24,509 bases of DNA from a virus. Both the position numbers and the translations under genes were made by a program. Positions 4,201 to 23,931 of this stretch are shown in pieces (position 1 is the stretch's first letter; each line of letters opens with the position of its first letter). The stretch covers positions 1 to 24,509 of the IMG/VR virus record IMGVR_UViG_3300037070_000184. One strand, 5' to 3'. The notes below the pieces were generated by a model. The model saw only the letters and a program-made list of their open reading frames with translations, did no database searches and was not told the DNA's origin.

Positions 4201-4619
4201 ATCCGCCCTCCAGCCATCTGCATCAGTATCTGTTGAATGGCCTCAGGTGGCAGGCCCATTGCTAGCAACATATCCACCACAGCCTCTTGGTCTCCTCCTC
4301 GTTCGTCGCCTGTGTGACTCAAACGGGACGGACCAAAGTCACGTCCCTCCATCGGCCCGGGCATTGTACTGGACGGTCCTGCGCGCCCAACCGCCATTAA
4401 CGGGACCTGAGGCCCACCGGGCTTCACCGGGCCTGTGTCAACCGGTGTTGTGCCACCGTCCGATGCAGGCCCGGGAATAGCCTCGAAGTTGCCCCCATGT
4501 CGGTCGTACGAATACGGTTGAACAGCGGAACTGAGCGTCCCGTCTTTGACAGGCGATTGCGAACCACGGGCCAATTGCGCCACGATTTCCGCAATTGCTG
4601 GGTTCTGAACGCCTTGCAT
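4197..4619 (-). CDS. Small Pro/Gly-rich protein, function unknown
   Basis: 140 residues from ATG at 4619. This ATG overlaps the TAA of the upstream gene as TAATG and has GGAG seven bases before it; a TTG two codons earlier (4625) is possible but less likely. The protein begins MQGVQNPAIAEIVAQLARG, has a Pro/Gly-rich middle and ends in a short helix (PPEAIQQILMQMAGGRI). The short helical Gln/Met-rich segment resembles the N-termini of the next two genes, so the three may be diverged relatives, though only the other two share a clear conserved block. A one-mismatch copy of the 13-base palindrome lies inside the gene. Function unknown. Confidence 0.65.
   Translation of the reverse strand: MQGVQNPAIAEIVAQLARGSQSPVKDGTLSSAVQPYSYDRHGGNFEAIPGPASDGGTTPVDTGPVKPGGPQVPLMAVGRAGPSSTMPGPMEGRDFGPSRLSHTGDERGGDQEAVVDMLLAMGLPPEAIQQILMQMAGGRI
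4312..4324. repeat. 13-bp palindrome, one-mismatch copy, inside a CDS
   Basis: GTGTGACTCAAAC on the plus strand; read on the minus strand as Leu-Ser-His-Thr in the small Pro/Gly-rich gene. Confidence 0.7.
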
Positions 4620-5623: not shown

Positions 5624-5636
5624 GTTTGACTCAAAC
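5624..5636. repeat. 13-bp palindrome, exact copy, gene junction
   Basis: GTTTGACTCAAAC on the plus strand. On the coding strand the first G is the last base of the upstream TAG stop, and AGGAG of the next gene follows one base after the motif. Confidence 0.95.
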
Positions 5637-6547: not shown

Positions 6548-6561
6548 GATCGTGCTCCTTT

Positions 6562-6574
6562 GTTTGAGTCAAAC
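6562..6574. repeat. 13-bp palindrome, exact copy, gene junction
   Basis: GTTTGAGTCAAAC on the plus strand. It shares a base with the TAG stop at 6574-6576, the same geometry as at 5624 and 23222. AAAGGAG of the next gene follows one base after it on the coding strand. Confidence 0.95.
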
Positions 6575-7539: not shown

Positions 7540-7550
7540 GTCCGTGCCCC

Positions 7551-8621
7551 TTAAAACAGAAGCTCTTGTCCAGTCTTGTCTTCTTCTGGTACGTAACCGG
7601 GTGCAGTTGCCGCTTGTTGTCCACCACCACCAGACTTATTTACAACAGGTGCGGCGGTATCACCACCCTGCGACGCTCCTGCAAGCGCACCAAGGCTTGA
7701 TGTGTCGAAGTACTTCTTCGTTCCAATGCCTGTCCTGAGCCCCTGCCCAAGACTTGAGATAAAGTCAGTCGCCATTTGGTTCAAGCTACCATAATCAGTG
7801 TCCACGTTATACGGTTGGTCAAACTTCAACGTGTCGTATGCAGACAGTCTTTTCGCTTGCTCCGCATCGATGTTGCCTTCACCAGTGTTAATCAAACCGG
7901 TTCCGATTTCGCTCAGTTGCGGACGCGCCAGATCGCCTTGACGATCAAGCTCCTTATACGCAGCAGTTGACCCTTGTTCGTTGATCAGACCACGTGAGAG
8001 CATGTTCTTGACGTACGTATCGGCCTCGCCACGTTGTTCGCCAAGGATCGACTCGATAAATGCATCATCTGACGTACCGGGCACCCAATCTTTGGGCATC
8101 TTCTTGTTGAATGCATCTTTAGCAGTATTCCTGTATGGGTTTTCGAGATCACCAAGCAATCGATCACCTAGTCCTGTGAAGTACGTATCGAAGTTGTCAC
8201 CCTGCGTACCGGGGATGCCTGCAATGGTTGAGGCAATTCGTCCCTCGATCTGACTACCGTATTTTGCTGGGTCCAGTCCGTACTTGGTGAAGGCTTCATT
8301 AACGCCTGTACGTCCTTTGGCTGTCGCGGTGTCTAACAGAGCCTGACGTACTGCCTTTGGATCGACCGCAGGCGTCTGCCCTTCGACCGTGAACTGTTTG
8401 TTGCTCTCACCGGCTCCTGTAGTGAGTGCGGGCAATCCACCCGGTACGCCTTCGGTCATCAACGGACCATTCTCACCGGGCTTGAGAAAGCCCAGTTGTA
8501 TAGCCTTCTCGACAGGTATCTCCCCAGTCGGGGGAATGCCCATCATTGCCAACCCAGCGATCATCCAACCGTCGGTGATCGTACCCGGCTGGAAGACTTG
8601 GTACATGCCCGGTGCGGCCAT
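7551..8621 (-). CDS. Virion-type protein, first member of a tandem paralogue family
   Basis: 356 residues. An N-terminal region unique to this copy (residues 1-88, with a mildly hydrophobic WMIAGLAMMGIP) is followed by the shared domain from residue 91: VRQALLDTATAKGRTG, EAFTKYGLDPAKYG, PYRNTAKDAFNKKMPKDWVP, DDAFIESILGEQR, MLSRGLINEQG, EIGTGLINTG. The tail is Gly-rich and ends EEDKTGQELLF. The stop of the GNAT gene is one base away from this ATG (TAAAATG), with GAGG seven bases before it. The family is unnamed to me; neighbouring genes suggest a structural or ejected protein. Confidence 0.8.
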   Translation of the reverse strand: MAAPGMYQVFQPGTITDGWMIAGLAMMGIPPTGEIPVEKAIQLGFLKPGENGPLMTEGVPGGLPALTTGAGESNKQFTVEGQTPAVDPKAVRQALLDTATAKGRTGVNEAFTKYGLDPAKYGSQIEGRIASTIAGIPGTQGDNFDTYFTGLGDRLLGDLENPYRNTAKDAFNKKMPKDWVPGTSDDAFIESILGEQRGEADTYVKNMLSRGLINEQGSTAAYKELDRQGDLARPQLSEIGTGLINTGEGNIDAEQAKRLSAYDTLKFDQPYNVDTDYGSLNQMATDFISSLGQGLRTGIGTKKYFDTSSLGALAGASQGGDTAAPVVNKSGGGGQQAATAPGYVPEEDKTGQELLF

Positions 8622-8622
8622 T

Positions 8623-9165
8623 TTACTGCCTCGTCACTGATGTTTCGTTCGCGGGCATGTGTGGCTTGTAGTAATAGATCGTACCAATCGGTTCGTAACC
8701 ACCGTAGCGTTGCAGCAACTTGCCCAATTGGTCTTGTTTGTATCCACCTGTTTGAGTCGCACTGATTATCGTCGCGCCTCGGTCGATTGCCCAGTCACGA
8801 TATGCGAACATGAGCTTGAGTACGTTCGGCAAGCTACGCCACTCAGGGTCAATGAACAGGAATATGTCGCCGGTCATCTTGTCATATGACAGTAACTGGG
8901 TCACACAGTATCCGCACACGCCACCAACGAGGGTCCCATCTGGTTTTGAAAGGACTCGACACATGAATTGGTCTTCACTGATGAGGCCTGCACGTAGGAC
9001 TTGTTCTAACCGCTGTGCGTTGACTGTGATCCCAGCGTAATGCGGGAGTTTGGGGACTTCGACCATGACACGGCCACACAGACCCGGTATGTCACGCTCT
9101 TCGAATTTGCGGACAACAAGTTGTTGCCTGTTCGAACCAGTATTCATTGTTTGACTCAAACTCAT
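8623..9165 (-). CDS. GNAT-family N-acetyltransferase-like protein
   Basis: About 180 residues with the GNAT layout: an N-terminal VVRKFEERDIPGLCGRV strand-helix, a central strand pair (MCRVLSKPDGTLVGGVCGYC), a segment GDIFLFIDPEWRSLPN where the acetyl-CoA-binding motif A is expected, then AYRDWAIDRGATIISA and a C-terminal RYGGYEPIGTIYYYKPH. Acetyltransferase-like genes occur within morphogenesis clusters of some podoviruses; the substrate is unknown. Two starts are possible. ATG at 9165 overlaps the upstream stop (ATGA) with GGAAGG eight bases upstream. ATG at 9147 follows a palindrome copy by one base, exactly like the tail nozzle gene, and would remove six residues (Met-Ser-Leu-Ser-Gln-Thr). 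A degenerate palindrome lies within the gene at 8750. Confidence 0.75.
   Translation of the reverse strand: MSLSQTMNTGSNRQQLVVRKFEERDIPGLCGRVMVEVPKLPHYAGITVNAQRLEQVLRAGLISEDQFMCRVLSKPDGTLVGGVCGYCVTQLLSYDKMTGDIFLFIDPEWRSLPNVLKLMFAYRDWAIDRGATIISATQTGGYKQDQLGKLLQRYGGYEPIGTIYYYKPHMPANETSVTRQ
8750..8762. repeat. Degenerate palindrome copy, two mismatches, inside a CDS
   Basis: GTTTGAGTCGCAC on the plus strand, in the GNAT gene. It may be a decayed copy or a chance match. Confidence 0.4.
9149..9161. repeat. 13-bp palindrome, exact copy, at the start of the GNAT gene
   Basis: GTTTGACTCAAAC on the plus strand. It ends one base before the alternative ATG at 9147, and codes Leu-Ser-Gln-Thr if the upstream ATG (9165) is used. 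Confidence 0.95.
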
Positions 9166-10802
9166 CGCCTGAACCTTCCCTTGGAGAACAAATACCTAAT
9201 CCCTGCGATGATCAGTGGCTCTTTGGCCGATCCGGTAATCTTGACTTTGACAGTCTTGAACTTGAGTGGGAAGCCGTACAATTGAGGATCGTTCGACTTG
9301 ACACCGGCACCTGCATCGTTGCCTACATAGTTCGCGAATAATGCAGACGCGGCATTGAAATCTATGTATGCGTCGACACGGAATGGTGCAGTGCCTCGTG
9401 AGTCAATAGACATGAAACGTAACTGTTTCACTCGCATCGGTGTGCGCCCATCCACCCATGGCAACTCCATAAGGAAGTTGATAGCAGTTCCTGTATTGGG
9501 GTCTGTCGTCGTCTGGAGATCGGCATGAAATTCTTCGTTCGGGAAGATATCATTACCTAACTGATAGACAGTTGTTCTCGCATTGACGTGTCCTGCAACG
9601 TAAACACGTCCTAAGAATGACTTGCAACCGCACACCATTCGAAGGCCTGTACCTTCGTAACGTGTCCACGATGAGTACTTCAGTTGTTCCTGTGATTGAA
9701 ACACATACGTTGTTCCAACTGAGTCATTGGTAAACATATATGTGCAGTGATCTATTGGATTAAACACCATGAACGGTGCCATTGTAAGCACTGTTGGCAA
9801 GTCTTCGCGCCATGCAGGTTCTATGAGTTCGCTCAGGAACTTACTGTCAATGTTACCAGAGAACAGATTACGCTTTGCGCTTGCCATGCCATCGTAACCG
9901 GCGAAGCGCAGATCATTCTCGACTGTAACAATGCAGCGATGATTGATCAGTCCGAACTGTGGCATTTCATCGATGAACTCGGGAATGTGCTTAGGAGGGT
10001 CTGAGGCATCGAATACACCGAGCTTCACAATCAATGACGCACCACGGAAGAACACAATAAGAAACTGTCTGTATCCAGCGAGACCTAAAATCAACGGCGC
10101 ACCAGATGGAGCATACGCACCAACATCGATACTAATCGCGTTGTTTGGCGCTCCGTCTCCCGGGAACGTACCCGATGTGCCTTTTGAGCTGATGTACACA
10201 GTTGTTGGATAACCAGAGATGCCACCAACACAATGGAAGTTGGCTGCGATACAACCGTACTTACCAATCGGTACGTTGAATACACTTCCAGATGCTGGAT
10301 CGGTTAGGAATTTAAACACATACGATGCATTCATAATCAATGGCTTGTCGATGCCATTATGAATGATTAGATACTCTTTCCAATGAACGAAATCAACTTG
10401 ACTCGTTGCGCTCCAACCCGTCGATGGCGGGTCAGGAGGTGTTACTGGCAACGCACCTGCGATTGTAGGGTTCCAAACAGCAACGACTGCACCGGCACTA
10501 TCGATTGTTGCGATTTGACCAGTCGACGACACAACAACGAGCCTGTTGTTGAAATACTCCATGTCGATGATGTTGCCAGTGATTGCAGGAGAGACATTTG
10601 CAAACACTTTCGATCCAAAGCGTAACTTCTGTGCTCCTGATGGCGTGCGACGGAAGTTGACCAAATCCGGTTGGTACTTGGCCTCCATATTGGTGTCTTC
10701 GTCGATGACATTCCAGCCGCCGCCGAAGCCCCGAAGAGTGATCTCTTCGAGGCGGCTCTTAGGTTGTTTCTGAGGCTTAGTGAGGAATAAAGACACGTTC
10801 AT
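9162..10802 (-). CDS. Tail nozzle / tail stabilisation protein (T7 gp12- or P22 gp10-like)
   Basis: 546 residues from ATG at 10802. The protein is rich in short beta strands and aromatic/Gly turns (GFGGGWNVIDEDTNM, NRLVVVSSTGQIATID, WKEYLIIHNGIDKPLIMNA, RFAGYDGMASAKRNLFSG), and its early segment (ITLRGFGGGWNV, then DLVNFRRTPSGAQKLRFG) is the usual opening of podovirus nozzle proteins that fold as beta-propellers. It follows directly the gene for the adaptor, as expected. An in-frame GTG at 10814 lies inside the palindrome and is a less likely start. The ATG follows the palindrome by one base; the nearest other candidate, AAGG, is about 15 bases away. The role is inferred from fold-like pattern and context. 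Confidence 0.75.
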   Translation of the reverse strand: MNVSLFLTKPQKQPKSRLEEITLRGFGGGWNVIDEDTNMEAKYQPDLVNFRRTPSGAQKLRFGSKVFANVSPAITGNIIDMEYFNNRLVVVSSTGQIATIDSAGAVVAVWNPTIAGALPVTPPDPPSTGWSATSQVDFVHWKEYLIIHNGIDKPLIMNASYVFKFLTDPASGSVFNVPIGKYGCIAANFHCVGGISGYPTTVYISSKGTSGTFPGDGAPNNAISIDVGAYAPSGAPLILGLAGYRQFLIVFFRGASLIVKLGVFDASDPPKHIPEFIDEMPQFGLINHRCIVTVENDLRFAGYDGMASAKRNLFSGNIDSKFLSELIEPAWREDLPTVLTMAPFMVFNPIDHCTYMFTNDSVGTTYVFQSQEQLKYSSWTRYEGTGLRMVCGCKSFLGRVYVAGHVNARTTVYQLGNDIFPNEEFHADLQTTTDPNTGTAINFLMELPWVDGRTPMRVKQLRFMSIDSRGTAPFRVDAYIDFNAASALFANYVGNDAGAGVKSNDPQLYGFPLKFKTVKVKITGSAKEPLIIAGIRYLFSKGRFRR

Positions 10803-10803
10803 T

Positions 10804-10816
10804 GTTTGACTCACAC
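10804..10816. repeat. 13-bp palindrome, one-mismatch copy, gene junction
   Basis: GTTTGACTCACAC on the plus strand, GTGTGAGTCAAAC on the coding strand, one base before the tail nozzle ATG. It lies in the gap after the adaptor gene stop. Confidence 0.9.
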
Positions 10817-10829
10817 ACCTTGCAACCGA

Positions 10830-11510
10830 TCAATGCGGATTGACGAACCAGTTGTTAGGCACCGATGTGCGCTCAGCGAAGGCCGTCTTCTGGTTAGCGA
10901 GTGAGTTCATTATATCCCGGTACTTACTGTCCATCATTGCTTGGACGTCTTGTTTAGCCTGAGGGTTCAAGTCGTCACCAGACAAGGCAACGAAGGCGGT
11001 TCCGAATGCGAGGAGATCACGATCTAAGTACACAGTCGTCGATTGTTGCCAATCCGTGCCAACTGGGAGAGGATGCACCCGTGCTCGGATGTTCATAATC
11101 CCAGTCGCCGTGATCGGATAGATTTGCAGCTTCTTGCCTGCGTAGTTCGGATCTGTCACAGGTAAGCTCGTCCAAAACAGCGCGGTCGTCCCTGTCGCAC
11201 CAACAGGGTTCATGTCTTCCGGCAGTGTTGGTAGTCCTTTGCTTTGCTTGTCACGATGCACAGCCAAGAAGTCATCGAAGTCCAACACCTGTGTGAACGG
11301 GGATGTCATAAACGTCCCAGTCGTACCGTCAAGAGTCACCGTTTGCCACGGAGAGTATTGCTTCCACCAGTGCTTCTTGAACAGCATATTAAATGCGCGC
11401 CCCGCATCTTTGACCATGCGGGGCTCGCTGTAGAGTTGTGTGCCTACTCCGGTAACCTCGCCCAAGATACCGAGCGCATCTTGGACGAGTTGCTGGATGG
11501 TGACGGACAT
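10830..11510 (-). CDS. Portal-tail adaptor (head-to-tail connector) protein
   Basis: 226 residues. The opening MSVTIQQLVQDALGILGEV, a middle with DFDDFLAVHRD, and the closing helices (RDLLAFGTAFVALSGDDLN, then QDVQAMMDSKYRDIMNSLANQ) match the pattern of podovirus adaptor proteins such as T7 gp11 and P22 gp4, which ring the portal and hold the nozzle. The position between the head genes and the nozzle gene supports this. ATG at 11510 has GGGA seven bases upstream and lies 15 bases after the preceding stop. It contains a strong inverted repeat near its 5' end (11399-11424). Specific membership of one of the two families cannot be told by eye. Confidence 0.7.
   Translation of the reverse strand: MSVTIQQLVQDALGILGEVTGVGTQLYSEPRMVKDAGRAFNMLFKKHWWKQYSPWQTVTLDGTTGTFMTSPFTQVLDFDDFLAVHRDKQSKGLPTLPEDMNPVGATGTTALFWTSLPVTDPNYAGKKLQIYPITATGIMNIRARVHPLPVGTDWQQSTTVYLDRDLLAFGTAFVALSGDDLNPQAKQDVQAMMDSKYRDIMNSLANQKTAFAERTSVPNNWFVNPH
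11399..11424. repeat. Perfect inverted repeat, 9-bp GC-rich arms, 8-nt loop
   Basis: GCCCCGCAT and ATGCGGGGC lie in the adaptor gene, about 85-110 bases inside its 5' end (codons 29-38). The RNA could form a stable hairpin. No T-run follows, so it does not look like an intrinsic terminator. Confidence 0.6.
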
Positions 11511-11525
11511 GAGATCGTCCCTGTC

Positions 11526-12209
11526 CTATGCGTAATACTGTCTGATCCCGTGCAGTCCACCGTTACCGTTTGCATTGACCGAGGCGTCACCAATCATTGC
11601 GACGATGATCTCCTTGGTCCCATCGAGCGCAATTGTTGGGTTGTACGTACCACGCGGATCACCCGAAGCAGACGTTGCCGGATCAGTCGTGACACCCGGT
11701 ACGAACTGCGCCGCGACGGCGACCATGACGCCGCCTTCGCGTGCCCACGTGACGTCACCACGGTAGGGGAGGCCGAGTGCGTCACCTGACGTGATAGACC
11801 ACGTAACGGCATTGGTCGACACCGTGACCACGCGTGCGCTGACGATGCGTTTGAACGCCTTCAACCCAACGATGGGCGTAGACGAACCGTTCACACCACC
11901 GACACGCTGGAGGATCGGCTGTCCGAGATAGTCGAACCCTCTCCAGTCGATCTGACCGCCTGCCGAGCCCGGATCGCCGGACGGTGTGAAGATCAAAGTC
12001 CTACCGTACGGCTCTGGGACGATGAGATCAACTGCCGTCACCGTACCGATTGCTGCGTTGGCAATGATACCGGCCTTGAGCACGGCATTCGCAGCAGGGG
12101 CACCGAGAGAGAACTGCTGCGGCTGCGTGTGGTTGATAGCATTCGAGTACTGCATAGCCGGGACGTACGCATTGATGCCCGGCTCGAATTGTTTACGATC
12201 GCGAAACAT
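11526..12209 (-). CDS. Probable minor head or decoration protein
   Basis: 227 residues, Gly/Ala/Thr/Val-rich, predicted mostly beta from alternating hydrophobics (AVDLIVPEPYGRTLIFTPSG, RIVSARVVTVSTNAVTWSIT, EGGVMVAVAAQFVPGV), with no signal peptide or membrane segment. The position between the capsid region and the adaptor gene suggests a head decoration or head-fibre-type protein; I do not recognise the family. The ATG at 12209 has AGGAG six bases upstream; an ATG inside that spacer runs straight into a stop. Upstream lies an 80-bp gap with a cluster of palindrome copies, which makes this gene a candidate for special regulation. Confidence 0.65.
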   Translation of the reverse strand: MFRDRKQFEPGINAYVPAMQYSNAINHTQPQQFSLGAPAANAVLKAGIIANAAIGTVTAVDLIVPEPYGRTLIFTPSGDPGSAGGQIDWRGFDYLGQPILQRVGGVNGSSTPIVGLKAFKRIVSARVVTVSTNAVTWSITSGDALGLPYRGDVTWAREGGVMVAVAAQFVPGVTTDPATSASGDPRGTYNPTIALDGTKEIIVAMIGDASVNANGNGGLHGIRQYYA

Positions 12210-12225
12210 TCACATCTCCTGTGTT

Positions 12226-12295
12226 GTGTGAGTCACTGTGTTTGAGTCACTGACCGATTACGCAACCGGTGTGAGTCACTGTGTTTGAGTCAAAC
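12226..12295. repeat. Cluster of four palindrome copies within a 43-bp-spaced direct repeat
   Basis: Copies centred near 12232, 12246, 12275 and 12289. The last, GTTTGAGTCAAAC at 12283-12295, is exact and contributes the TGA stop of the upstream gene. The other three have a degenerate right arm (GTGTGAGTCACTG at 12226 and 12269, GTTTGAGTCACTG at 12240). A 24-base exact direct repeat (12226-12249 and 12269-12292) spans two copies each, so the unit was duplicated. Confidence 0.85.
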
Positions 12296-12733
12296 AACGG
12301 CTTCGGCTTCGTTCAACCGGAACCCACCTTTGCCCATCTGCTCGGGCATGATGACAGTACCAGTTTTCGCAGTGGCCAATCGGATCACTTGATCCTCCAT
12401 TGAACGCCACGCGCCTTTGCGAGTGATGTCATCTTGAGCCGAGAGCATGCGGCCGATTGGACTGTTAGGATCGCTCAGCCCTTGCATGTTGATGATCGGA
12501 GCCTCACCTTCACGCAGGTTGTAGTGAGCTAATGCGTCCTTGTCCTTGAGCCTCACAACATGCCCACGCGGGAAGTACACGATGTACCCCGCGTCTTCCT
12601 CGACCATGACGGTTTGGAGCCCCTTCCCGGCTTCGTACCGGTTCTGCTCACGTTTCACCGTCCCTTTCAGATGGATCACCACATAGGCGAGCCTAGCACC
12701 GGTCCTATTGCGTACCATAGAGATATCGGACAT
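12290..12733 (-). CDS. Small head-region protein, function unknown
   Basis: 147 residues. It opens MSDISMVRNRTGARLAYVVI, contains a charged central part with YIVYFPRGHVVRLKDKD, and closes with a helix-rich segment (RMLSAQDDITRKGAWRSMED). I do not recognise the family. It follows the capsid gene directly; ATG at 12733 has GAGGT five bases upstream and sits seven bases after the capsid stop. The stop codon TGA lies inside a palindrome copy, so the last bases of the gene and the repeat overlap. Genes in this position in podoviruses are often decoration or head-completion proteins, which is only an inference here. Confidence 0.7.
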   Translation of the reverse strand: MSDISMVRNRTGARLAYVVIHLKGTVKREQNRYEAGKGLQTVMVEEDAGYIVYFPRGHVVRLKDKDALAHYNLREGEAPIINMQGLSDPNSPIGRMLSAQDDITRKGAWRSMEDQVIRLATAKTGTVIMPEQMGKGGFRLNEAEAVV

Positions 12734-12740
12734 TTTGACC

Positions 12741-13709
12741 TCAGTTCGTCAGGTACGCATGGGTCCTGTATTGACGCCACGTACACAGTTGACCTTCCCA
12801 CACGACACGGCGGCCGATGGCATCCATGTCCCACGGAGCGACGAGCTTCTTGACCTTCATGTTCACACCCTTGAGAACATGGAGGGTCAGATATTCTTCG
12901 TTGACGAAGTAGCAGACGTTGGCGGGGAGCTTCTCGTCGAACAGGAGAGGGACGCCGTTGTGTGTGGTTCCCACGATACCAAGATTGACCAACGCTTTGC
13001 CGGTGCCGGTAGCATTGAGGGCGATCTGCTGCTTGTCTCGGGCTGCGGCTTTGTGCATCCGGTAGATGTTGCGTCCTGCGAAGATGACGGTGGGCTTGGG
13101 CGACGCTTGTCCATCCGACTTACGATTGAGATCAAGCTCGATGATGTCATCGAAGGCTTCCTCTATGTTCTCCGGCGTGAGCGTGCCAGCGAAATTGTAA
13201 GAAGAGGAGCGCCACTGTGCTTCTGACGCAAGGCTAATGCCACCGACAGAGCCAGTTGTCGGGTCAGCAGGAATGAGGTTTCCAAGCCCGTTAGGATCAG
13301 TGCCTGTGCCAACAGAGGTGTGGTATGTGGCAAACTGACGACTGATCGACTCGTCCAGTGCCTTGATCTTACCTGTGATGATCTTGAAAATTTCTGCCCG
13401 TCCTTGGTTCTCATCATCCTCTTGGTCCGAGATGATCAAACTGCCGACGACGCGGGACATGAAGTACTCGACCGTGGTGAACTCGTTCGTCTGATCGACG
13501 GGCAGTTGATCGTAGTACTGCATCGACGTGACGTTGGGATTGAGTCCAACGATGAGCGGATTGGAGATCTGCGGACCACCGTCTTCAACGATGACGCGTT
13601 TTTTGGCATGGAGATATGCGCTCACGGTGCCCGAAATCGCGGAAGCCATGATCAGCTTCGCCCGACTCCGCGTCAGCATTGCGTGAACCACTGTATCGAG
13701 TGCGGCCAT
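12741..13709 (-). CDS. Major capsid protein (HK97-fold type)
   Basis: 322 residues. Typical capsid features: a variable N-terminal helix, then NPLIVGLNPNVTSMQYYDQL, the segment VVGSLIISDQEDDENQGRAE, IFKIITGKIKALDESISRQF, then a NGLGNLIPADP loop, and late strands such as TVIFAGRNIYRMHKA and KLPANVCYFVNEEYLTLHVL. Placement directly downstream of the scaffold and portal genes is diagnostic. Length and pattern resemble other podovirus capsid proteins of about 320-350 residues. The ATG at 13709 has only a weak ribosome-binding site (GAGA) 30 bases after a palindrome copy, which is surprising for what should be the most abundant virion protein. Confidence 0.85.
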   Translation of the reverse strand: MAALDTVVHAMLTRSRAKLIMASAISGTVSAYLHAKKRVIVEDGGPQISNPLIVGLNPNVTSMQYYDQLPVDQTNEFTTVEYFMSRVVGSLIISDQEDDENQGRAEIFKIITGKIKALDESISRQFATYHTSVGTGTDPNGLGNLIPADPTTGSVGGISLASEAQWRSSSYNFAGTLTPENIEEAFDDIIELDLNRKSDGQASPKPTVIFAGRNIYRMHKAAARDKQQIALNATGTGKALVNLGIVGTTHNGVPLLFDEKLPANVCYFVNEEYLTLHVLKGVNMKVKKLVAPWDMDAIGRRVVWEGQLCTWRQYRTHAYLTN

Positions 13710-13738
13710 GTGGGTTCTCTGCTGCTGTGTTTGGGTCT

Positions 13739-13751
13739 GTTTGACTCAAAC
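13739..13751. repeat. 13-bp palindrome, exact copy, gene junction
   Basis: GTTTGACTCAAAC on the plus strand, three bases after the scaffold stop and about 30 bases before the capsid ATG. A degenerate half-copy (GTTTGGGTC) lies just downstream of it on the coding strand. Confidence 0.95.
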
Positions 13752-13754
13752 TGG

Positions 13755-14894
13755 TTACATCCCTGCTTCTGCCATCACACTGCGGGCGATCTGCTCGTAG
13801 GATTGATTGACATCGGCCATTCGACTGCCTTGTTGGACGGGCATGCGGCCACGTCCATTCGGGAATGCACCGCGTTGGCGGGTTCGGTCCCCAGACTGTC
13901 CTTCCCGTTGCTGACGTTGCACGAGGAACAGTTGCAGCTTCGCCCAAATCTCATTGAGCGACATCTGTGGGTGCCGCTGGAGGACGGCATCCAACACCGG
14001 AAGATACGTACGTGCATCCGGGTTCTGCGCAAAGAATTGAGCGACGTGTACCTTCGCGTCACCGAAGGCTCTCTGTTGTTGTGCTTGTTCTTGTTGTGCT
14101 CTCTGCTCCGCTTCGGTGCGCTGCCGAAGGGGTTGCATCTGCTGTTGAATTTCGCCTCGTAGCATGTCTGCTAGGGACTTCATATCGGCACCGCCGCTGA
14201 GTCCCAGCTCAGATAAATCTATACCATTTGCAGCGGCTCGGGTCAAGAGTTGCTTCAACGCCTGAATAGGGTTGGTCTTAGACATAGCCACAAGTTGCAT
14301 GGCTTCGAGTTGTTCCTGAGGACTGATACCAAGCTTTTGCATCTGAGCGTTCTGCCCCTGAAGGGCTTCGAAACGGCCATAAACTTCCTTGCCGATTTCG
14401 ACAGCGCGCTGTAAGCGGTTGGTCAGATCACTTACCTGAGCCTGAGCTTGGGCTTGGAAGGACTGGAGTTGACGCGATGCATTGGCCGCCTGTTGGTAGA
14501 AGCGAGCTTCCTTACCAGAACGCGCAACGATATTGCCTCGCGCATCGACAAGGTTGCCTTTGGCATCGGGTCGAACCTCAGCAGAAGACGGGATTGGTCC
14601 TCGCTGTGGCTGTTGTGCGGCGTCTTTGCGCTTGGGCTCACGTCCGAATTGGTCCTTTGAGCGACGTGCGGGCCTTTGACCTTCACCCATATCGACTTCG
14701 GAGTCTGCGGCAGTGAACCGGTTGTCCCCTGTTGCGCGTCCAAGGCCATCTCCTGAGTCACTGTCACTACTGTCTCCTTGATCCACACCAATATCATATC
14801 CTGCGTCGCCATCGCTCTCAGACACGCCAAGATCGTCTGCGGTAATGCCCAATGAGGCAGCTTTACCATTGCCTTCCATTGTACGGTCACTCAT
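13755..14894 (-). CDS. Capsid scaffolding protein
   Basis: 379 residues from ATG at 14894. The N-terminal third is acidic and Gly/Asp/Ser-rich (DQGDSSDSDSGDGLGRATGD); then long helical Gln/Ala-rich segments (QLQSFQAQAQAQVSDLTNRL, EIQQQMQPLRQRTEAEQRAQ), and a basic C-terminus (RQRGAFPNGRGRMPVQQG). The alternation of acidic, coiled-coil and basic tail segments, and a place between portal and capsid genes, fit a scaffold that directs capsid assembly. A TTG at 14918 in the same frame lies inside the palindrome; ATG at 14894, with AGGGAG six bases upstream, is clearly better. Confidence 0.8.
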   Translation of the reverse strand: MSDRTMEGNGKAASLGITADDLGVSESDGDAGYDIGVDQGDSSDSDSGDGLGRATGDNRFTAADSEVDMGEGQRPARRSKDQFGREPKRKDAAQQPQRGPIPSSAEVRPDAKGNLVDARGNIVARSGKEARFYQQAANASRQLQSFQAQAQAQVSDLTNRLQRAVEIGKEVYGRFEALQGQNAQMQKLGISPQEQLEAMQLVAMSKTNPIQALKQLLTRAAANGIDLSELGLSGGADMKSLADMLRGEIQQQMQPLRQRTEAEQRAQQEQAQQQRAFGDAKVHVAQFFAQNPDARTYLPVLDAVLQRHPQMSLNEIWAKLQLFLVQRQQREGQSGDRTRQRGAFPNGRGRMPVQQGSRMADVNQSYEQIARSVMAEAGM

Positions 14895-14907
14895 GTTGTT
14901 CTCCCTT

Positions 14908-14920
14908 GTTTGAGTCAAAC
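14908..14920. repeat. 13-bp palindrome, exact copy, gene junction
   Basis: GTTTGAGTCAAAC on the plus strand, two bases after the portal stop and 13 bases before the scaffold ATG, with AGGGAG between. Confidence 0.95.
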
Positions 14921-14922
14921 AA

Positions 14923-17223
14923 CTACGCGACAGGTCGTGCTGCGTCTGCCGGTGGCTGTTGTGCTACGTTACTTGCGGGTGCGCCTTGTGGTGGTGCGGC
15001 TTGTGGTGGTGTAGCACCCTGTGCACCACCTCCACCCTGCGGCGCCGCATTCATCTTCTGTGCCTCTTGGATAGCGTATTCGATGATCTGCTTGGCAGGC
15101 ACACCCTTCTCACGCATCTGCATGATGCGCTGTTTCACTTCATCAGGTAACGCCTGTAAGATTTTCGCAACGTCTAGACCCTGACCCTGTGCTGCGGCAG
15201 GGTCTGCTTGTCCCGGTTGACCACCTTCCGCACCTCCCACCTGCTGACCCGTGCTCACACCCTGCTGCATGGTCGCACTGATCTCCTTACGCATCAGATC
15301 GAACTGTTCAGGCTTGATCGTGATGTCAGTGAATGCCTTCTGGAACAGATCGAGCATGATCCATAGCGTCGAACCCGGAGCAGCCTGTGCAAATTGTCCA
15401 ATAGCCTGAGCAGCTTGGATAGCCTCTCGTTTTTTGAATACGCTATTCGGCTTCTCCATCGAACCCGCGACGAGCATGAGCGTGTACTGCGAGGCGAATA
15501 TCTCAAGGGGCATCTCCTTCCACGCCTGCGCCTTGGAGTTACCGATGAGCCCAGTTACCTCCTCTTGTCCCATGTACTGAACGCACATCTCGGCCAATGA
15601 CACGGCGAGATCGGCAATGGTGTCCTCGATAACGTCTACCTTGGCACCAATGCTCAGTCGCATGCTCTCTTGGTAGCTTTCGACCGCACTCTCATTCGTG
15701 TAGGCTTTGAATTGCACTCCGCGCAGAGCATCGTTCGTGTTTGTGATCCGATCCATCGACTGTTTGATCGGATCTTTGGCGAATAAGGCCTCGTAATCGA
15801 TAGCGGGAGGCTTAACGGACTCAATCAGGTCTGTAATCTTGTGCTCACCGGCTTTGATAGCCAAAAAGTGCTCACCATCGTCCGAAGGGCTCATCAACGC
15901 CTTCAAAAACTTCTCCGCGTCGTCTTTGTTGATCTTGGAGGAGTTGTAGTAGAAGTAATTGAAGATCGTACGCCTGATTTTGGCCACCTGACGATTGATT
16001 TGATTGATTTCATCCTGTTGATCAAGAATGTACGCAGTTTCCCCAACACTGACTGATCCTCCTGTGCTGAAACCGTATCCGATAATGAAGTACGGGTAAA
16101 AACGGGTGATATTGACCAATGAACGTGCGTCCCACACCCATACAGGCCACGTCCAATCATCTCCAGCGAACAGCATTACGCGACCTGCGGCTTTGTCCCA
16201 CACGTAGAAGCATTCAGTGTAGTACATTTCAATATAGGCCGTTCTCTCGTCCTCTGTGTGGGCAGTTACCAATTGATTTGACTCAATCGCCTTCATCACG
16301 ATGCCAAGGCCTTCGTCGCGTTCACCTTCGCCACCAGTGAATACGGCTTTGTGAGTGGGCTTATAGACCAAAACACGTGCATCTGAGGCATTTCCCTCAG
16401 AGTCAGGGTCAGGTTTCGTGAACTGAGCGTTGAGGTAATTAGTCGCCAGCATCGTCCGTTCGATCATCCACTCCGAGTCCATGCCGTCTTGCTGTTCGGC
16501 ATTCGGATCGATGATCAGGTTCTGCGGTAGTATGTTGGACAGGCCCGGACCAGAGGGTTTACGCACTTCCATATTTTGCTCTAGAGCCTCTAATTGACCA
16601 TAGAGCATATCCAGTTCTTCTTGTTTCTTCGTTCGAGCCATCGACTCCATGATCCGGGCCATCTCTTGCTGCGCCATCTCACGGCTGTCGTCCTTGCGCG
16701 TCCATTCGAGCTTAAGGACGCCAAAGTTCGTGAGTAGCGCAAAACCAGCGGCGCGTTTGATCTTCTGTTTCGCACCCAATTTGTCCTTGCGACGCATAAG
16801 CGTGTTGATAACGTCCTGCAATGCGTTACAGAACGGCTCGTCTTCCTGATCGGTTGTGGAACACGTGAAATGTGGGTCTTTGCTGTACGTAGCAGGCAAC
16901 ATGACGTTCAGGTTCGAATAGATCATGTTCTCCGTGCTGTCGCCACGCTTGAAAGTACCCATCACGGTCTGTTGGGTCTTGGTCTGATGGTTGTTGTAAT
17001 AGCGAAATACTTCATCCCACACGAGGTGGATTTGTTCATATGTAGCAATGGCTGAGTCGTATTTCTTCTTCCACGCAGGACCGACGGTCTTGCCGACAAC
17101 GATCTTGGAGTCCTCGTAAATGCGAAATAAGGGCTGAGGCCCCTCGGGTTGTTCTGGCGTCTCGGATTGTGGATCGAATACGTCGGTGTCGTCGAGAGGG
17201 TCTTCGGTGAGATTGTCAGACAT
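14923..17223 (-). CDS. Portal protein
   Basis: 766 residues. A large acidic, helix-rich protein with the portal pattern: an acidic N-terminal leader, IYSNLNVMLPATYSKDPHFT, NTLMRRKDKLGAKQKIKRAA, the central stem region (GETAYILDQQDEINQINRQV), and a C-terminal, Pro/Gln/Ala-rich tail with a short coiled coil (KQRIMQMREKGVPAKQIIEY). Its place directly after the large terminase gene and before the scaffold is the usual portal order. ATG at 17223 follows a palindrome copy by two bases and shows no separate good Shine-Dalgarno; the motif's own GAG lies eight bases upstream. Long for the family: many podovirus portals are about 500-750 residues. Confidence 0.9.
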   Translation of the reverse strand: MSDNLTEDPLDDTDVFDPQSETPEQPEGPQPLFRIYEDSKIVVGKTVGPAWKKKYDSAIATYEQIHLVWDEVFRYYNNHQTKTQQTVMGTFKRGDSTENMIYSNLNVMLPATYSKDPHFTCSTTDQEDEPFCNALQDVINTLMRRKDKLGAKQKIKRAAGFALLTNFGVLKLEWTRKDDSREMAQQEMARIMESMARTKKQEELDMLYGQLEALEQNMEVRKPSGPGLSNILPQNLIIDPNAEQQDGMDSEWMIERTMLATNYLNAQFTKPDPDSEGNASDARVLVYKPTHKAVFTGGEGERDEGLGIVMKAIESNQLVTAHTEDERTAYIEMYYTECFYVWDKAAGRVMLFAGDDWTWPVWVWDARSLVNITRFYPYFIIGYGFSTGGSVSVGETAYILDQQDEINQINRQVAKIRRTIFNYFYYNSSKINKDDAEKFLKALMSPSDDGEHFLAIKAGEHKITDLIESVKPPAIDYEALFAKDPIKQSMDRITNTNDALRGVQFKAYTNESAVESYQESMRLSIGAKVDVIEDTIADLAVSLAEMCVQYMGQEEVTGLIGNSKAQAWKEMPLEIFASQYTLMLVAGSMEKPNSVFKKREAIQAAQAIGQFAQAAPGSTLWIMLDLFQKAFTDITIKPEQFDLMRKEISATMQQGVSTGQQVGGAEGGQPGQADPAAAQGQGLDVAKILQALPDEVKQRIMQMREKGVPAKQIIEYAIQEAQKMNAAPQGGGGAQGATPPQAAPPQGAPASNVAQQPPADAARPVA

Positions 17224-17225
17224 CT

Positions 17226-17238
17226 GTTTGACTCACAC
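17226..17238. repeat. 13-bp palindrome, one-mismatch copy, gene junction
   Basis: GTTTGACTCACAC on the plus strand, two bases after the large terminase stop and two bases before the portal ATG. Confidence 0.92.
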
Positions 17239-17240
17239 AG

Positions 17241-18782
17241 TTAGAATGCATTGCGAAGTTGATTGTCTTCAACTTCTCGCCATTTCATCCAAGGCTTCTG
17301 ATCGATGGGTATCGGTGGTTTGATCTCACTCGGCTGCGGCAAGAATGCTAGCATATATTTCAGTGTGTTCATAGCATGATCGTTGTGTTCCTGAGGCACC
17401 TCAGCCAATCGACCTTGACTGTCACGCTTCCAGTAATAGTTTGCGATTTCGTCCTGAAACCACGACAGATCATCGACAACGTACAGCATTGGACCGGCGA
17501 GGCGATCATCCTGTGTCAGATGTGGAACGTTAAACCTATCTGCAAGGTACGCATTCACCTTAGCAATCCCAGGCATGACATCATTAGAAGCAGGACGAAT
17601 ATCAAGACCATCACCTTCAAGGAGGTTAGCAATGGTCTCGCCCGTCTCTCCATGATGTTTGACGACCTGTTGCTTATAAATGGAAGGGTCAGCATTGATA
17701 GGATCATCACAACGCAAACGACCACCAAAGCTAGACAGGTATCGTCCACGGATCATCTCGATTTCGTTCTTGTGTTCGGTATAGTTGAGGTTCGGCTTGT
17801 AGAACCCATCGATTACGATCACACGACCGAGATCGTCGATGAAACCCAGCATGTACACAGTAGGGGCACTGAGTCCAAAATCATAACCCTCGACTAACCT
17901 GACACGGACATGTCGAATGATACAATCGTTCAGATGGTCAAGAGCTTCCTGTCTCGTTAGACCATGTACACGGATATCGAATATACCGTGTACGAGTCCT
18001 TCGAAGGCGGCCCAACCTCCCATAAGGAAGCGTTCCCGCATCTGACCGTGATACATAGCTTCGAGGGTTGCGATATAATCGGGGGCCAGATTGTCCTTAT
18101 TAGTGTACGTGGAGCCTTCCCATAGGTCCAAGATGCATTCACCGGAAATCGGGTCCACTGGGAGATTGGGCGTCTTGATACCACGATCCCTCCAGATCAT
18201 GAACGGGTGTATCAGTTCCTTGAACACCCAGTTCGCCGTAGGGTTGCAAGTCAACATCATCCAGCGCGGGCCTGTGTTTGGCATCGTAGGGTCGTCTTCG
18301 CCAACCGGACGATATGGCGTGTCGCCACGAAGGCGGCCCAACAGATCAAGTATATCCTTATGCGTAATCTCGGGGTCTTCGACTTGGTCAATGCCAAGCC
18401 AATCATACGATGCGCTGAGCAGGTTGGACGTCGTTTGGCCATCTGACTGCTGCCTACCACGTTGATTGATGTACCTGAAGTCTACCTTTGATCCGTTTTT
18501 GAAGACGCAGGTGTTTTCGTCTTTGGTGGGCATACGTTCGATCCAGTCGCTTGGGCACCAGTCGAAGAAGACGCGTTGAAGCGTGCCGCGAAGCTTAGGA
18601 TATGTCGCACGACCCAGGAGGCCAACACTACCCGGATAGTCAGATACCAATTGTAGGGCTTTGATAGCCAACGCAGTAGTTTTGCCATTACCAAAGCCTC
18701 CACCCATCACTTGGACCTTGTGACGGGACTTATTGAACCCGTATTGGATCGACGGCTCACGTAAGTTGTAGACGCTTGTCAT
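17241..18782 (-). CDS. terL: Terminase large subunit (DNA packaging ATPase-nuclease)
   Basis: 513 residues. Walker A at residues 28-35 (GGFGNGKT, Lys34), Walker B near 128-136 (WLGIDQVED, Asp132 with the catalytic Glu135), and the coupling motif LTCNP near 177-181 make up the ATPase half. The nuclease half starts with an acidic strand VEGYDFGLSAP near residue 300, with IDDLGRVIVIDGFY after it and a later Asp (NADPSIY); these are the metal-binding candidates. It pumps DNA into the capsid through the portal. ATG at 18782 overlaps the upstream TGA (ATGA) and follows a palindrome copy by two bases, with no other good ribosome-binding site. A small subunit is not adjacent; the candidate lies about 5 kb upstream. 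Confidence 0.93.
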   Translation of the reverse strand: MTSVYNLREPSIQYGFNKSRHKVQVMGGGFGNGKTTALAIKALQLVSDYPGSVGLLGRATYPKLRGTLQRVFFDWCPSDWIERMPTKDENTCVFKNGSKVDFRYINQRGRQQSDGQTTSNLLSASYDWLGIDQVEDPEITHKDILDLLGRLRGDTPYRPVGEDDPTMPNTGPRWMMLTCNPTANWVFKELIHPFMIWRDRGIKTPNLPVDPISGECILDLWEGSTYTNKDNLAPDYIATLEAMYHGQMRERFLMGGWAAFEGLVHGIFDIRVHGLTRQEALDHLNDCIIRHVRVRLVEGYDFGLSAPTVYMLGFIDDLGRVIVIDGFYKPNLNYTEHKNEIEMIRGRYLSSFGGRLRCDDPINADPSIYKQQVVKHHGETGETIANLLEGDGLDIRPASNDVMPGIAKVNAYLADRFNVPHLTQDDRLAGPMLYVVDDLSWFQDEIANYYWKRDSQGRLAEVPQEHNDHAMNTLKYMLAFLPQPSEIKPPIPIDQKPWMKWREVEDNQLRNAF

Positions 18783-18973
18783 TTGTTTGACTCAAACTGT
18801 TTACAGTCTTTGACCATTTGTGCAATCAACGTATCGCGACGAACACCAGCCTCAGCAATTGATTGTAGCGTCCACGTACTGGCTCCTATGAAAAGGACAT
18901 TAATGACGATTATAACCAAGGCGAACGGATGATCGCGTAGGGTGTGGATGACATCCTCAACGATCTTGACCAC
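18779..18973 (-). CDS. Small single-span membrane protein, possibly part of lysis
   Basis: 64 residues from a GTG start with GAGGAG eight bases upstream. One hydrophobic segment at about residues 16-33 (PFALVIIVINVLFIGAST) follows a charged N-terminus; a charged tail follows and ends FESNK. The end of the gene contains a whole palindrome copy, read as Phe-Glu-Ser-Asn, and its TGA overlaps the terminase ATG. Size and topology are compatible with a holin, antiholin or spanin component, but nothing diagnostic is visible. There is no lipobox and no clear partner gene beyond the membrane protein directly upstream. Confidence 0.6.
   Translation of the reverse strand: MVKIVEDVIHTLRDHPFALVIIVINVLFIGASTWTLQSIAEAGVRRDTLIAQMVKDCKQFESNK
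18785..18797. repeat. 13-bp palindrome, exact copy, in the last codons of a gene and before terL
   Basis: GTTTGACTCAAAC on the plus strand, coding Phe-Glu-Ser-Asn at the end of the small membrane protein, and ending two bases before the terL ATG. Confidence 0.95.
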
Positions 18974-19265: not shown

Positions 19266-19651
19266 TTTGGTTCTCCTCTGTTTGACTCAAACTCAGGAGC
19301 AATGTCCGCTTGTGCTTCGAGCATCGCAACGAACGCATCAGTCATGACTTCAAGCTGCACCATAAGTTGTGCGAACCTCGGAGGCGAGAACTCATTCGGC
19401 ATGGTGTGAATTGTGTCACGAACCGACTTGGCAGTGATCAATGCGGCTTCGATCCCTGCCGTGATGCGTGCATTGGCATCGGGGATCGGGAGAGGTGGTG
19501 GAAGGGATGGAGGTGCAGGATCAGGTGTATTAGGTACAGCTAACCATGCTTCATATTCAATACGATCACGATTGGCCGGATCGTTCGGGATGGATGCGTG
19601 ATCCGCAGTGCGAATGACGACATCGGTTGCGGTGAGTTGATAATCTGCCAT
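19262..19651 (-). CDS. Small tail-fibre-associated protein
   Basis: 129 residues from ATG at 19651, which overlaps the upstream stop as TGATG and has GAGG five bases before it; a GTG one codon earlier (19654) is less likely. The N-terminal half has the pattern [20 protein letters not shown] followed by a PNTPDPAPP linker, a sequence style common in small proteins next to phage tail fibres. The C-terminus is helical ([20 protein letters not shown]) and ends with FESNRGEPK, where FESN is a palindrome copy. The exact function is unknown; a fibre assembly helper or partner is plausible from context. Confidence 0.7.
19280..19292. repeat. 13-bp palindrome, exact copy, near the end of a gene
   Basis: GTTTGACTCAAAC on the plus strand, coding Phe-Glu-Ser-Asn nine codons from the end of the fibre-associated gene, just before AGAGGAG of the next one. 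Confidence 0.95.
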
Positions 19652-21184: not shown

Positions 21185-23188
21185 TCAATGCACTCCCGGT
21201 CGAGTTTCGCCTGTTTGACTCAAACGGTCTTCAAGGTCTTTGACCCGAGAGCGTAACGCTTTCAACTCCTGCAATAAGACTGGTACGTATTTGGAATAGT
21301 CGATGCCCCACCATTCGTCACGGGCAGGACCGGCTTCGCTCTTGCCTACCTTACCAGTGTGCGTGACGGCCTGCGGATATACGTCGTATGCCTGCTGAGC
21401 GATCACACCATACGCGCGCTCCTTGGTGGACTTCCACGCGAAGTCATACACATTCGTGTTGTCGATGATGTTGCCTGCGTCGAATGATTTGAGGTCTTCT
21501 TTGAGGGCTGCGTCGGAGGAGGTGTTGTAAATAGTCGTTGTTGATGTACAACTAAGTCCACCGATAAGCACACCTGATCTACTACATGGCATCAACCAGC
21601 CATCACTGTTCCTATTTATATTTATTGGCTGTCCATTGGCACAACTTAAAAACATCGTGTTAGAAGCAGTCGATATACCAACGTCTGTGTTAACATTTCC
21701 GGGTGCCGTGCCTGCTGTTGTTCGAATGCCAATCTCCGTACCAATATTAACAGCACCACCAACCCCCAAGCCCCCAAATACAGTCAACGCACCTGTTGTT
21801 GAGGAGGTGGAAGGTAGTGTGCTTGTTGCCAACACGCGACCATTTAAAGCAATGTCACCGGCACCTCTGGTTATTTGTACTATTGCATTTATTGCAACAC
21901 CAGCATCGTTGTATCTATTGATAGAGAAGTCGGAGCCAATGTCGCCTCCTGTTTCAGCGAGAGCACTTCCTAAAACAATCGACCAACGGGCTAATCCATT
22001 CTTCCTACCGAAGATTTCTGCTCTGCTAGCATCAGATTTGTCTAAGTTGATTGTTGGCGTAGACTTAACAACCGTCACATCACCAGCGGCATTGATCGCA
22101 CCACCAACACCTAATCCACCAGCTACAGTTAATGCGCCGGTAGTTGGTGAGGTGGAGGGAATACCCAGACCCAAACTAACACGACCTGATGTTCTAAAAA
22201 TTGTAAGCGGCGCAACACCCTCTGCATCAATGTTCAAGCCATCATCACCGTAACGAACAAACTCTAACTGCCCTCCACCATTGCCACCAGTTTCTGCACT
22301 GTTAGGACTTAATCGCATCGCCCATCGCGGTGAGTTTGCTGTGTATAAATTCACGCCAGCAGAAATGCCTAATGCTCCACTCGGCCTTTGTACTTTAAGA
22401 GCCGCACTTACAGCAGACGGAGCAATCGTCAAATCACCCGTCATCGTATCGCCGGTCTTCTGTATAAAGTTCCCGTACGCTGAGGCCCCTCCGACCTCAA
22501 CCCATTGTACAGACGTACCGTCGTTGTAATACATCCACAATATACCGGTGTCCGACTCCCACCACAATATGCCTTGGATCGGACCGGCCGGTGGCGTGTC
22601 GGCAATCTTGACCGCGCCTGTATTGGTCGCAGCAATCGCCTCGACGAACTGTCTAGTCGCAGCGTGGAGTGGCAGTTGTGGATTATCATTCAGGGTCAGG
22701 AACCCTGTCATGGTGTCTCCTGCACGGAGCACACGATCACTAATCGCCGGGACGAGGAGGTCGACGTATTGTTTCGTCGCCGCGTGCATGTTCTGCGTTG
22801 GCGTCGCGTGGAGAAACAGAAAACCGGACATATTATCTCCGGCCTTGAGCACGCGAAGATTATCGGCTGCACTTGTCGTACTATCGACGTACGCTTTGGT
22901 CGCAGCGTGTAACGGGTTCGTAATAGCAATACCCGGCAAAGTTAAAAGGCCGGTCATTGTATCACCGGCCTTCGCAACGTATCCTGTAGTTACGCCGCTG
23001 AGTGTTGCATCCACATACGCCTTCGATGCAGCATCTGTTGGGTTCACGGGTGGGCTGACCAAGGTCAACTGCCCCAACATATTACGCGAGCCATCACGGA
23101 CAACGTAGTCAGTCTCGACATACACGAATGGATCGGTCGAGGCTGCGAAGCTCTGCATAAAACGCGGGCGGCCGATCCTGTGGCGCAT
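21185..23188 (-). CDS. Tail fibre with C-terminal S74-type intramolecular chaperone domain
   Basis: 667 residues. The N-terminal 230 residues hold about four and a half copies of a repeat of about 30-50 residues ([12 protein letters not shown], then HAATKAYVD and variants). Two copies of TGALTVAGGLGVGGA-like segments lie in the middle, and a RWSIVLGSALAETGGDIGSD module is shared with the next gene. The last 113 residues (from N555) look like a Peptidase_S74 chaperone: a SSDAALKED motif with the likely Ser/Lys pair near 557-563, GVIAQQAYDVYPQAV, WWGIDYSKYVPVLLQELKAL and a terminal coiled coil. Such domains help trimerisation and then cleave themselves off. ATG at 23188 has GGGAG before it. A palindrome copy lies in the last codons. 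Confidence 0.88.
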   Translation of the reverse strand: MRHRIGRPRFMQSFAASTDPFVYVETDYVVRDGSRNMLGQLTLVSPPVNPTDAASKAYVDATLSGVTTGYVAKAGDTMTGLLTLPGIAITNPLHAATKAYVDSTTSAADNLRVLKAGDNMSGFLFLHATPTQNMHAATKQYVDLLVPAISDRVLRAGDTMTGFLTLNDNPQLPLHAATRQFVEAIAATNTGAVKIADTPPAGPIQGILWWESDTGILWMYYNDGTSVQWVEVGGASAYGNFIQKTGDTMTGDLTIAPSAVSAALKVQRPSGALGISAGVNLYTANSPRWAMRLSPNSAETGGNGGGQLEFVRYGDDGLNIDAEGVAPLTIFRTSGRVSLGLGIPSTSPTTGALTVAGGLGVGGAINAAGDVTVVKSTPTINLDKSDASRAEIFGRKNGLARWSIVLGSALAETGGDIGSDFSINRYNDAGVAINAIVQITRGAGDIALNGRVLATSTLPSTSSTTGALTVFGGLGVGGAVNIGTEIGIRTTAGTAPGNVNTDVGISTASNTMFLSCANGQPININRNSDGWLMPCSRSGVLIGGLSCTSTTTIYNTSSDAALKEDLKSFDAGNIIDNTNVYDFAWKSTKERAYGVIAQQAYDVYPQAVTHTGKVGKSEAGPARDEWWGIDYSKYVPVLLQELKALRSRVKDLEDRLSQTGETRPGVH
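21213..21225. repeat. 13-bp palindrome, exact copy, near the end of the S74 fibre gene
   Basis: GTTTGACTCAAAC on the plus strand, coding Leu-Ser-Gln-Thr in the C-terminal coiled-coil end of the fibre chaperone domain, about 30 bases before the next start. Confidence 0.95.
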
Positions 23189-23221: not shown

Positions 23222-23234
23222 GTTTGACTCAAAC
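23222..23234. repeat. 13-bp palindrome, exact copy, gene junction
   Basis: GTTTGACTCAAAC on the plus strand, sharing a base with the TAG stop at 23234-23236, about 33 bases before the start of the S74 fibre gene. Confidence 0.95.
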
Positions 23235-23918: not shown

Positions 23919-23931
23919 GTTTGACTCACAC
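23919..23931. repeat. 13-bp palindrome, one-mismatch copy, gene junction
   Basis: GTTTGACTCACAC on the plus strand, GTGTGAGTCAAAC on the coding strand. It contains the TGA stop of the probable small terminase gene and precedes the ribosome-binding site of the next gene. Confidence 0.92.

Follow-up and report, generated by a model that had tools for sequence, protein, structure and literature searches.

Two dispersed repeat systems of mycobacteriophages come closest to the element described here. In the parts of the source consulted, the stoperators of Cluster A mycobacteriophages are sequences of 13-14 bp present in tens of copies per genome, some at promoters and most not, with a consensus that varies by lineage; they have no dyad symmetry, point in the direction of transcription and serve as binding sites for the monomeric repressor of these temperate phages, which blocks elongation (PMC6550527). 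The Start-Associated Sequences (SAS) of Cluster K mycobacteriophages, likewise as given in the consulted parts of their descriptions, are 13-bp dispersed elements located immediately upstream of many start codons, in the position of the Shine-Dalgarno (SD) sequence; they are asymmetric, contain AGGAG, are confined to the non-structural half of the genome, may include the upstream stop codon, and their function is unproven (PMC3203893, PMC12699233). For dispersed short phage repeats such as these, it has been difficult to decide whether they belong to transcription or to translation. We describe here a 13-bp palindrome, two half-sites around one free centre base, in the IMG/VR virus record IMGVR_UViG_3300037070_000184 (24,509 bases, all called genes on the minus strand; the whole stretch is hereafter the window) and in its relatives. 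In this element, a single degenerate base keeps the two constraints apart, and the hundreds of natural copies represent an evolutionary experiment in which the arms track the lineage and the centre tracks the distance to the start codon.

Centre base and distance to the start codon

The palindrome GTTTGANTCAAAC is found in the window in 12 exact and 4 one-mismatch copies, whereas 100 first-order Markov sequences gave an expectation of 0.03 for either class. Three copies, all on the minus strand and with centre G, end directly before a start codon: GTTTGAGTCAAAC at 18785..18797 lies 2 nucleotides (nt) before the terL start at 18782, while the variant GTGTGAGTCAAAC lies 2 nt before the portal start at 17223 (copy 17226..17238) and 1 nt before the start of a putative nozzle gene at 10802 (copy 10804..10816). 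None of the three has a separate SD sequence, and a GAG ends 8, 8 and 7 nt before the respective ATG. This geometry, reported in a first-pass annotation made from the sequence of the window, was confirmed, with the portal and nozzle copies being one mismatch off the palindrome instead of the perfect form. The same annotation suggested that the centre base may have a functional meaning; since three cases are too few to test any rule, relatives were examined.

Viral contigs were scanned with TerL, portal and capsid (one such scan kept 80 of 584 matches) and reduced to 89 non-redundant IMG/VR contigs comprising 1.33 Mb, among them the window and ten longer records. Three patterns yielded 975 palindrome copies in this set, compared to 2 for a control in which the two halves of the core had been exchanged. 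Each copy was paired with the first in-frame ATG of a called gene within 60 nt, with the SD sequence playing no part in the choice of start; separate SD sequences were scored by a word list, and the starts are predictions. Under this rule, 485 copies were paired and 490 of the 975 had no start within 60 nt. The distance between palindrome and start is bimodal, with 159 copies at 0-3 nt (close), 18 at 4-9 nt, 271 at 10-25 nt and 37 at 26-60 nt. On the coding strand, the centre of the close copies is G in 147, A in 6, C in 6 and T in none, and a separate SD sequence accompanies 0 of the 159. In contrast, the 308 copies at 10 nt or more (far) have centre G in 144, C in 124, T in 29 and A in 11 cases, and 261 of them have a separate SD sequence. 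The centre base thus carries a translation-related meaning. While the first-pass annotation was right in direction, its evidence was too thin, and it is the comparison of centre base and SD sequence across relatives that supplies the demonstration. The counterexample it had named, a centre C at the start codon without an SD sequence, is rare (6 of 159 close copies, and 2 of 100 where starts are defined by homology).

After merging similar contexts, centre G was found in 118 of 128 close compared to 113 of 246 far copies (Fisher p=1.7e-20), and shuffling the centres within contigs over 5000 rounds gave on average 107.9 and at most 123 close copies with G, compared to the 147 observed. When starts were placed by homology in 20 gene families, the 100 close sites had centres G 94, A 4 and C 2, with an SD sequence in none; all 11 sites at 4-9 nt had centre G; and the 246 far sites had G 123, C 86, T 28 and A 9, with an SD sequence in 197. 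A held-out set of ten stretches from a further scan, which an overlap check found not to overlap the first set, gave centre G in 16 of 16 close copies compared to 24 of 41 at 10 nt or more; of these stretches, L255 is another part of an already sampled contig, while L236 and L206 are closely related. Individual sites can also be followed between relatives. The portal palindrome lies 13 nt from the start, with AAGGA, in the relative G010, and 2 nt from it, without an SD sequence, in the window. The window gene 13755-14894 has centre C and its orthologue in L001 centre G, both at 13 nt from the start with GGAG.

Separately, distances of 2, 11, 14 and 17 nt are favoured in the 89 contigs, which places the TGA of the palindrome in frame with the start; the rule for choosing starts may contribute to this.

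A centre G places GAG where an SD sequence is usually found, 5-10 nt before the start: in 147 of the 156 centre-G sites at 0-5 nt, the distance from the end of GAG to the start is 6-9 nt, and the same spacing is the one most used by GGAG in genes with a far copy and in genes free of the motif. The predicted pairing of close sites with the anti-SD sequence has a mean of -2.36 kcal/mol, which drops to -0.44 kcal/mol when the centre is turned to C, compared to -7.2 kcal/mol for genes with far copies and -3.4 kcal/mol as the best value of random 22-mers. Because this pairing is weak, G is the best that the free position can give and not a good SD sequence. Furthermore, the end of the upstream stop codon is commonly only a few bases away from the site, and in some cases this stop is the TGA of the site itself, so that reinitiation probably helps. 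The UGA-stop context was also considered as the cause of the centre G and rejected: far sites that use their own TGA as upstream stop have G in only 13 of 23 cases, and this context therefore does not explain 147 of 159.

Arms, genomic distribution and possible function

The two arms co-vary across lineages and are stable inside a lineage. Close relatives have GTTTGAnTCAAAC in common, other lineages have GTGTGAnTCACAC, GTATGAnTCATAC, GTGTGAnACACAC or CTTTAAnTTAAAG, and some relatives carry hybrid sites, e.g., GTGTGAGTCATAC; GTGTGAGTCACAC is a further duplex form of the palindrome beside GTTTGAGTCAAAC. The ten longer records (40-48 kb, in a group with phage genomes of approximately 45 kb) contain 36-43 copies each, counting one-mismatch forms. 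No palindrome above the recurrence threshold was found in 21 of the 89 contigs, several of which are short or contain hybrids. In contigs with GTTTG arms, the copies at 0-3 nt include 16 with a GTGTGA 5' arm and a TCAAAC 3' arm compared to 15 perfect GTTTGA/TCAAAC sites, and the corresponding numbers for far copies are 10 and 65.

Copies are most frequent between genes, at 7.8 per kb in tandem, 6.0 in convergent and 3.4 in divergent gaps, compared to 0.11 inside genes, and 10 copies were counted over 11 convergent junctions. Moreover, in 11 contigs with different arm types, a promoter of the TTGACA-17-TATAAT type is framed by two copies, the first 10-13 nt upstream of the -35 element and the second 34-55 nt downstream of the -10 element (L047:4627-4727, L039:927-1026 and nine further contigs). 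These promoter and convergent positions, together with forms for which no RNA fold is predicted, favour a site in duplex DNA over an RNA element. We consider it probable that the palindrome is a genome-wide operator for a protein likely encoded by the phage, and that its free centre is held at G where the site takes the SD position.

Alternatively, the element could act in the mRNA, as a hairpin with a 5-bp stem and a 3-nt loop that is bound by a translational regulator of the phage or cleaved by a nuclease and controls translation of the next gene. The arms remain complementary across lineages, most copies (692 of the 975) are in tandem gaps near starts, and a hairpin is predicted for 5 of 6 palindromic or wobble-paired forms, with -0.7 to -3.2 kcal/mol for 6 of 8 strings. 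However, neither the CTTTA form nor the common GTGTGAGTCAAAC hybrid (76 copies) has a predicted fold, the copies 10-13 nt upstream of a -35 element fall outside the transcript of that promoter, and copies also occur at convergent junctions, so that we regard an mRNA hairpin as unlikely. Hairpin promoters are used by the N4 virion RNA polymerase, and such an element was considered because it is alike in size, but it was rejected given copies on both strands and at convergent junctions. A search for PF00940 (T7-type polymerase) gave no match in 10 relatives, but as the control of that search likewise remained without a match, this does not demonstrate absence; the 1800-aa virion protein of G010 matched no polymerase family.

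A centre G could also be unrelated to ribosomes and reflect either the descent of a few genes from a common ancestor or a tendency of the bound protein to face one way relative to the gene that follows. Ancestry does inflate the counts, since close copies recur in the same 8 gene families (terL 25, portal 21, nozzle 16, others), and hybrid sites have their GTGTGA half on the centre-G side in 76 compared to 32 cases, which would fit a preferred orientation. However, within a family the G bias is confined to close sites (odds ratio 19.6 for close versus far), as seen for the fibre family (11 of 11 close versus 3 of 16 far) and the portal family (21 of 21 versus 12 of 26), with the TerL family showing no contrast (22 of 25 close and 5 of 5 far copies). 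Far sites show little strand preference, as the numbers of G and C centres given above illustrate, and the position of GAG agrees with SD spacing. Furthermore, in the seven contigs with at least two far copies with A or T centre, the close copies have G or A, with one C in G006, and never T. Ancestry or orientation alone is therefore an unlikely account of the centre G. The weakest alternative, proposed in the first-pass annotation, is that the palindrome as such is a plain ribosome-binding element whose centre base chooses between use with and without a separate SD sequence; although this would match the 147 close copies with centre G and no SD sequence, it is very improbable given that 490 of 975 copies have no start within 60 nt, that copies are also present where genes converge, ahead of promoters and within genes, that 261 of 308 far copies have their own SD sequence, that the arms, although constant inside each lineage, switch jointly from one lineage to another and contribute little to anti-SD pairing, and that GAG pairs at -2.4 compared to approximately -7 kcal/mol.

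The operator reading can be put into a mechanism as follows. The palindrome would be a duplex-DNA site repeated throughout these phage genomes, where it would mark promoters and the boundaries of genes; it is most likely recognized by a dimeric DNA-binding protein that the phage encodes. Where the site lies at least 10 nt upstream, an ordinary SD sequence would fit between site and start; at 0-3 nt, the palindrome itself would take the SD position, and the only free base, the centre, would be held at G on the coding strand, which places GAG 6-9 nt before the start. This GAG may then act as a weak SD sequence, probably together with termination-reinitiation from the nearby upstream stop codon. 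The element may in this way be read twice, with a DNA-binding protein of the phage reading the arms and punctuating transcription at many gene junctions and the ribosome reading the free base, a proposal we make tentatively. If it holds, the bound protein would, at one and the same element, gate transcription and also lie over the site where translation of terL, portal and other virion genes begins.

The candidate binder is a family of small proteins with a ribbon-helix-helix pattern, which is encoded in 22 of 22 near-full relatives that have GTNTG-type arms and hold the region (for example at L061:623-820, minus strand); the 40-kb record G001, from which this region seems to be missing, yielded no member. 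Its predicted fold (mean predicted local distance difference test score 80.8) ends in strand, helix, helix, and the meaningful fold matches in PDB are TacA2, NikA and CopG, all with E-values above 1, while the Pfam TacA1 score is slightly below the cut-off. A helix-turn-helix protein and a LuxR-type protein were rejected as binders, being present in 4 and 1 of 12 sequence sets, respectively.

Several observations weigh against the operator reading. With regard to the binder, the ribbon-helix-helix family was not found in G008, which has CTTTA arms, and its strand residues do not track the arms cleanly; moreover, a winged-helix-like family (A4) is equally widespread (15 of 16) and represents a second candidate. 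We therefore leave the binder unnamed. Since none of 10 relatives yielded an integrase, there is no indication of a lysogeny repressor. With regard to the centre base, 12 of the 159 close copies have A or C, the start codons are predicted ones, and the copies of related contigs are not independent: counting each combination of family, distance and arm once, without full tree correction, leaves centre G in 28 of 30 close compared to 65 of 134 far cases. The anti-SD pairing of GAG is weak, below that of random 22-mers and short of what counts as substantial pairing for an SD sequence. Finally, 338 homologous starts are free of the motif; an SD sequence accompanies 250 of them, and by the word list the other 88 likewise lack one, which indicates that an SD sequence is not strictly needed. 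The element also helps the prediction of start codons.

Further copies and genes of the window

All further copies in the window are likewise on the minus strand. The first-pass annotation had stated that copies with a coding-strand centre C all have a separate strong SD sequence. This holds for 6562..6574, 14 nt before the gene start at 6547 with AAGGAG between, and for 14908..14920, 13 nt before the gene start at 14894 with GGGAG between; the third, 12283..12295, has an AGGAG downstream, but it lies 73 nt before the gene start at 12209, with two degraded copies between, and its own TGA terminates the open reading frame (ORF) 12290-12733. Within the window, the link between centre and SD sequence is one-way only, since five centre-G copies also have a separate SD sequence: 5624..5636 (12 nt before the gene start at 5611, AGGAG), 19280..19292 (14 nt before the ORF start at 19265, GAGGAG), 21213..21225 (29 nt before the tail-fibre start at 21183, GGGAG), 23222..23234 (33 nt before the tail-fibre start at 23188, GGGAG) and the GTGTGAGTCAAAC variant at 23919..23931 (23 nt before a GTG start at 23895, GAGGAG). 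Another centre-G copy, at 13739..13751, lies 29 nt before the major capsid start at 13709, where the word list found no SD sequence. Copies inside genes are found at 1495..1507 and 2662..2674, both within ORF 3-2855, and as the variant GTTTGAGTCACAC at 4312..4324, within ORF 4197-4619.

The remaining copy, with centre G at 9149..9161, overlaps the 5' end of the GNAT acetyltransferase gene, which extends from 8623 to either 9147 or 9165. The ATG at 9147, 1 nt after the palindrome, had been put forward as an alternative start with the geometry of the nozzle gene. It is not supported, as it is not conserved: the corresponding codon of G010 reads GAG, and the gene there starts at a GTG directly ahead of the palindrome, with GGGGAGG upstream of this GTG; it is the start at 9165, with AAGG upstream, that matches the start position in G010.

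PHROGs matches support terL (17241-18782), the major capsid gene (12741-13709), the acetyltransferase and the tail fibres, as well as, weakly, the portal (14923-17223). For the putative nozzle gene (9162-10802), a label taken from the first-pass annotation, there was a single weak virion-protein match, in 1 of 8 homologues, and no match among PDB sequences; the name therefore rests on gene order. Rfam gave no match within the window. Three adjacent genes at 5636-8621 group together by homology, the last two sharing 71% identity across a stretch of 300 nt, and most relatives have one copy. The capsid protein is 73-100% identical over ten lineages, in which TerL is just 46-86% identical. In the relative G010, a family A DNA polymerase with an N-terminal uracil-DNA-glycosylase domain is encoded on the minus strand at L060:14909-17404.

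The palindrome points to a regulator in a phage group without a close cultured relative in the collections searched. In the phage collection, the portal had no match and the capsid matched only 8 records, at 24-27% identity; one of these, Bradyrhizobium phage ppBjS10J-1, was searched over its whole sequence and lacks such a palindrome. A capsid scan of genome contigs, aimed at a host via prophages, found no relative.

Comparison with described elements

Ribbon-helix-helix proteins of the TacA, CopG and Arc type are small dimers that bind short palindromes. The present site resembles their operators in being a short palindrome accompanied, in all 22 relatives with GTNTG-type arms considered above, by a gene for a candidate protein of this pattern; it differs from established operators of this kind in the poor E-values of the fold matches and in the CTTTA-arm relative in which the family was not found. 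CcrM methylates GANTC, a core present in the palindromes of most lineages with the free base as its N, but the GTGTGAnACACAC and CTTTAAnTTAAAG types are devoid of it, and a CcrM site was therefore rejected. Outside the palindromes, GANTC is under-represented in many genomes, at 0.46 of the expectation in the window, 0.30 in G002 and near 1 in L143, a hint that the host may methylate or restrict GANTC.

Searching the literature with the motif strings returned, by title, no phage paper among the matches listed, and no title describes such an element. The consulted parts of the stoperator and SAS papers contain no mention of a centre base tied to the distance from the start codon (PMC6550527, PMC3203893). 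As far as these parts describe them, stoperators share with the present element the short dispersed copies, here 36-43 per record of 40-48 kb and including promoters, as well as a lineage-dependent consensus. Unlike stoperators, the site is palindromic in its main arm types, its far copies have little strand preference (G 144, C 124, T 29 and A 11 of 308), and, in contrast to the temperate phages in which stoperators occur, no integrase was found in 10 relatives; moreover, its centre base varies with how far away the start lies. With SAS, judged by the same partial sources, the element shares the 13-bp dispersed form, the possible inclusion of an upstream stop codon and the location next to start codons in the SD position, which applies here to the 159 of 485 paired copies at 0-3 nt, with 308 at 10 nt or more. 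Unlike SAS, however, it is palindromic, contains at most GAG and often lies upstream of a separate SD sequence, and it precedes terL, portal, capsid and tail genes, thus covering structural and non-structural regions alike.

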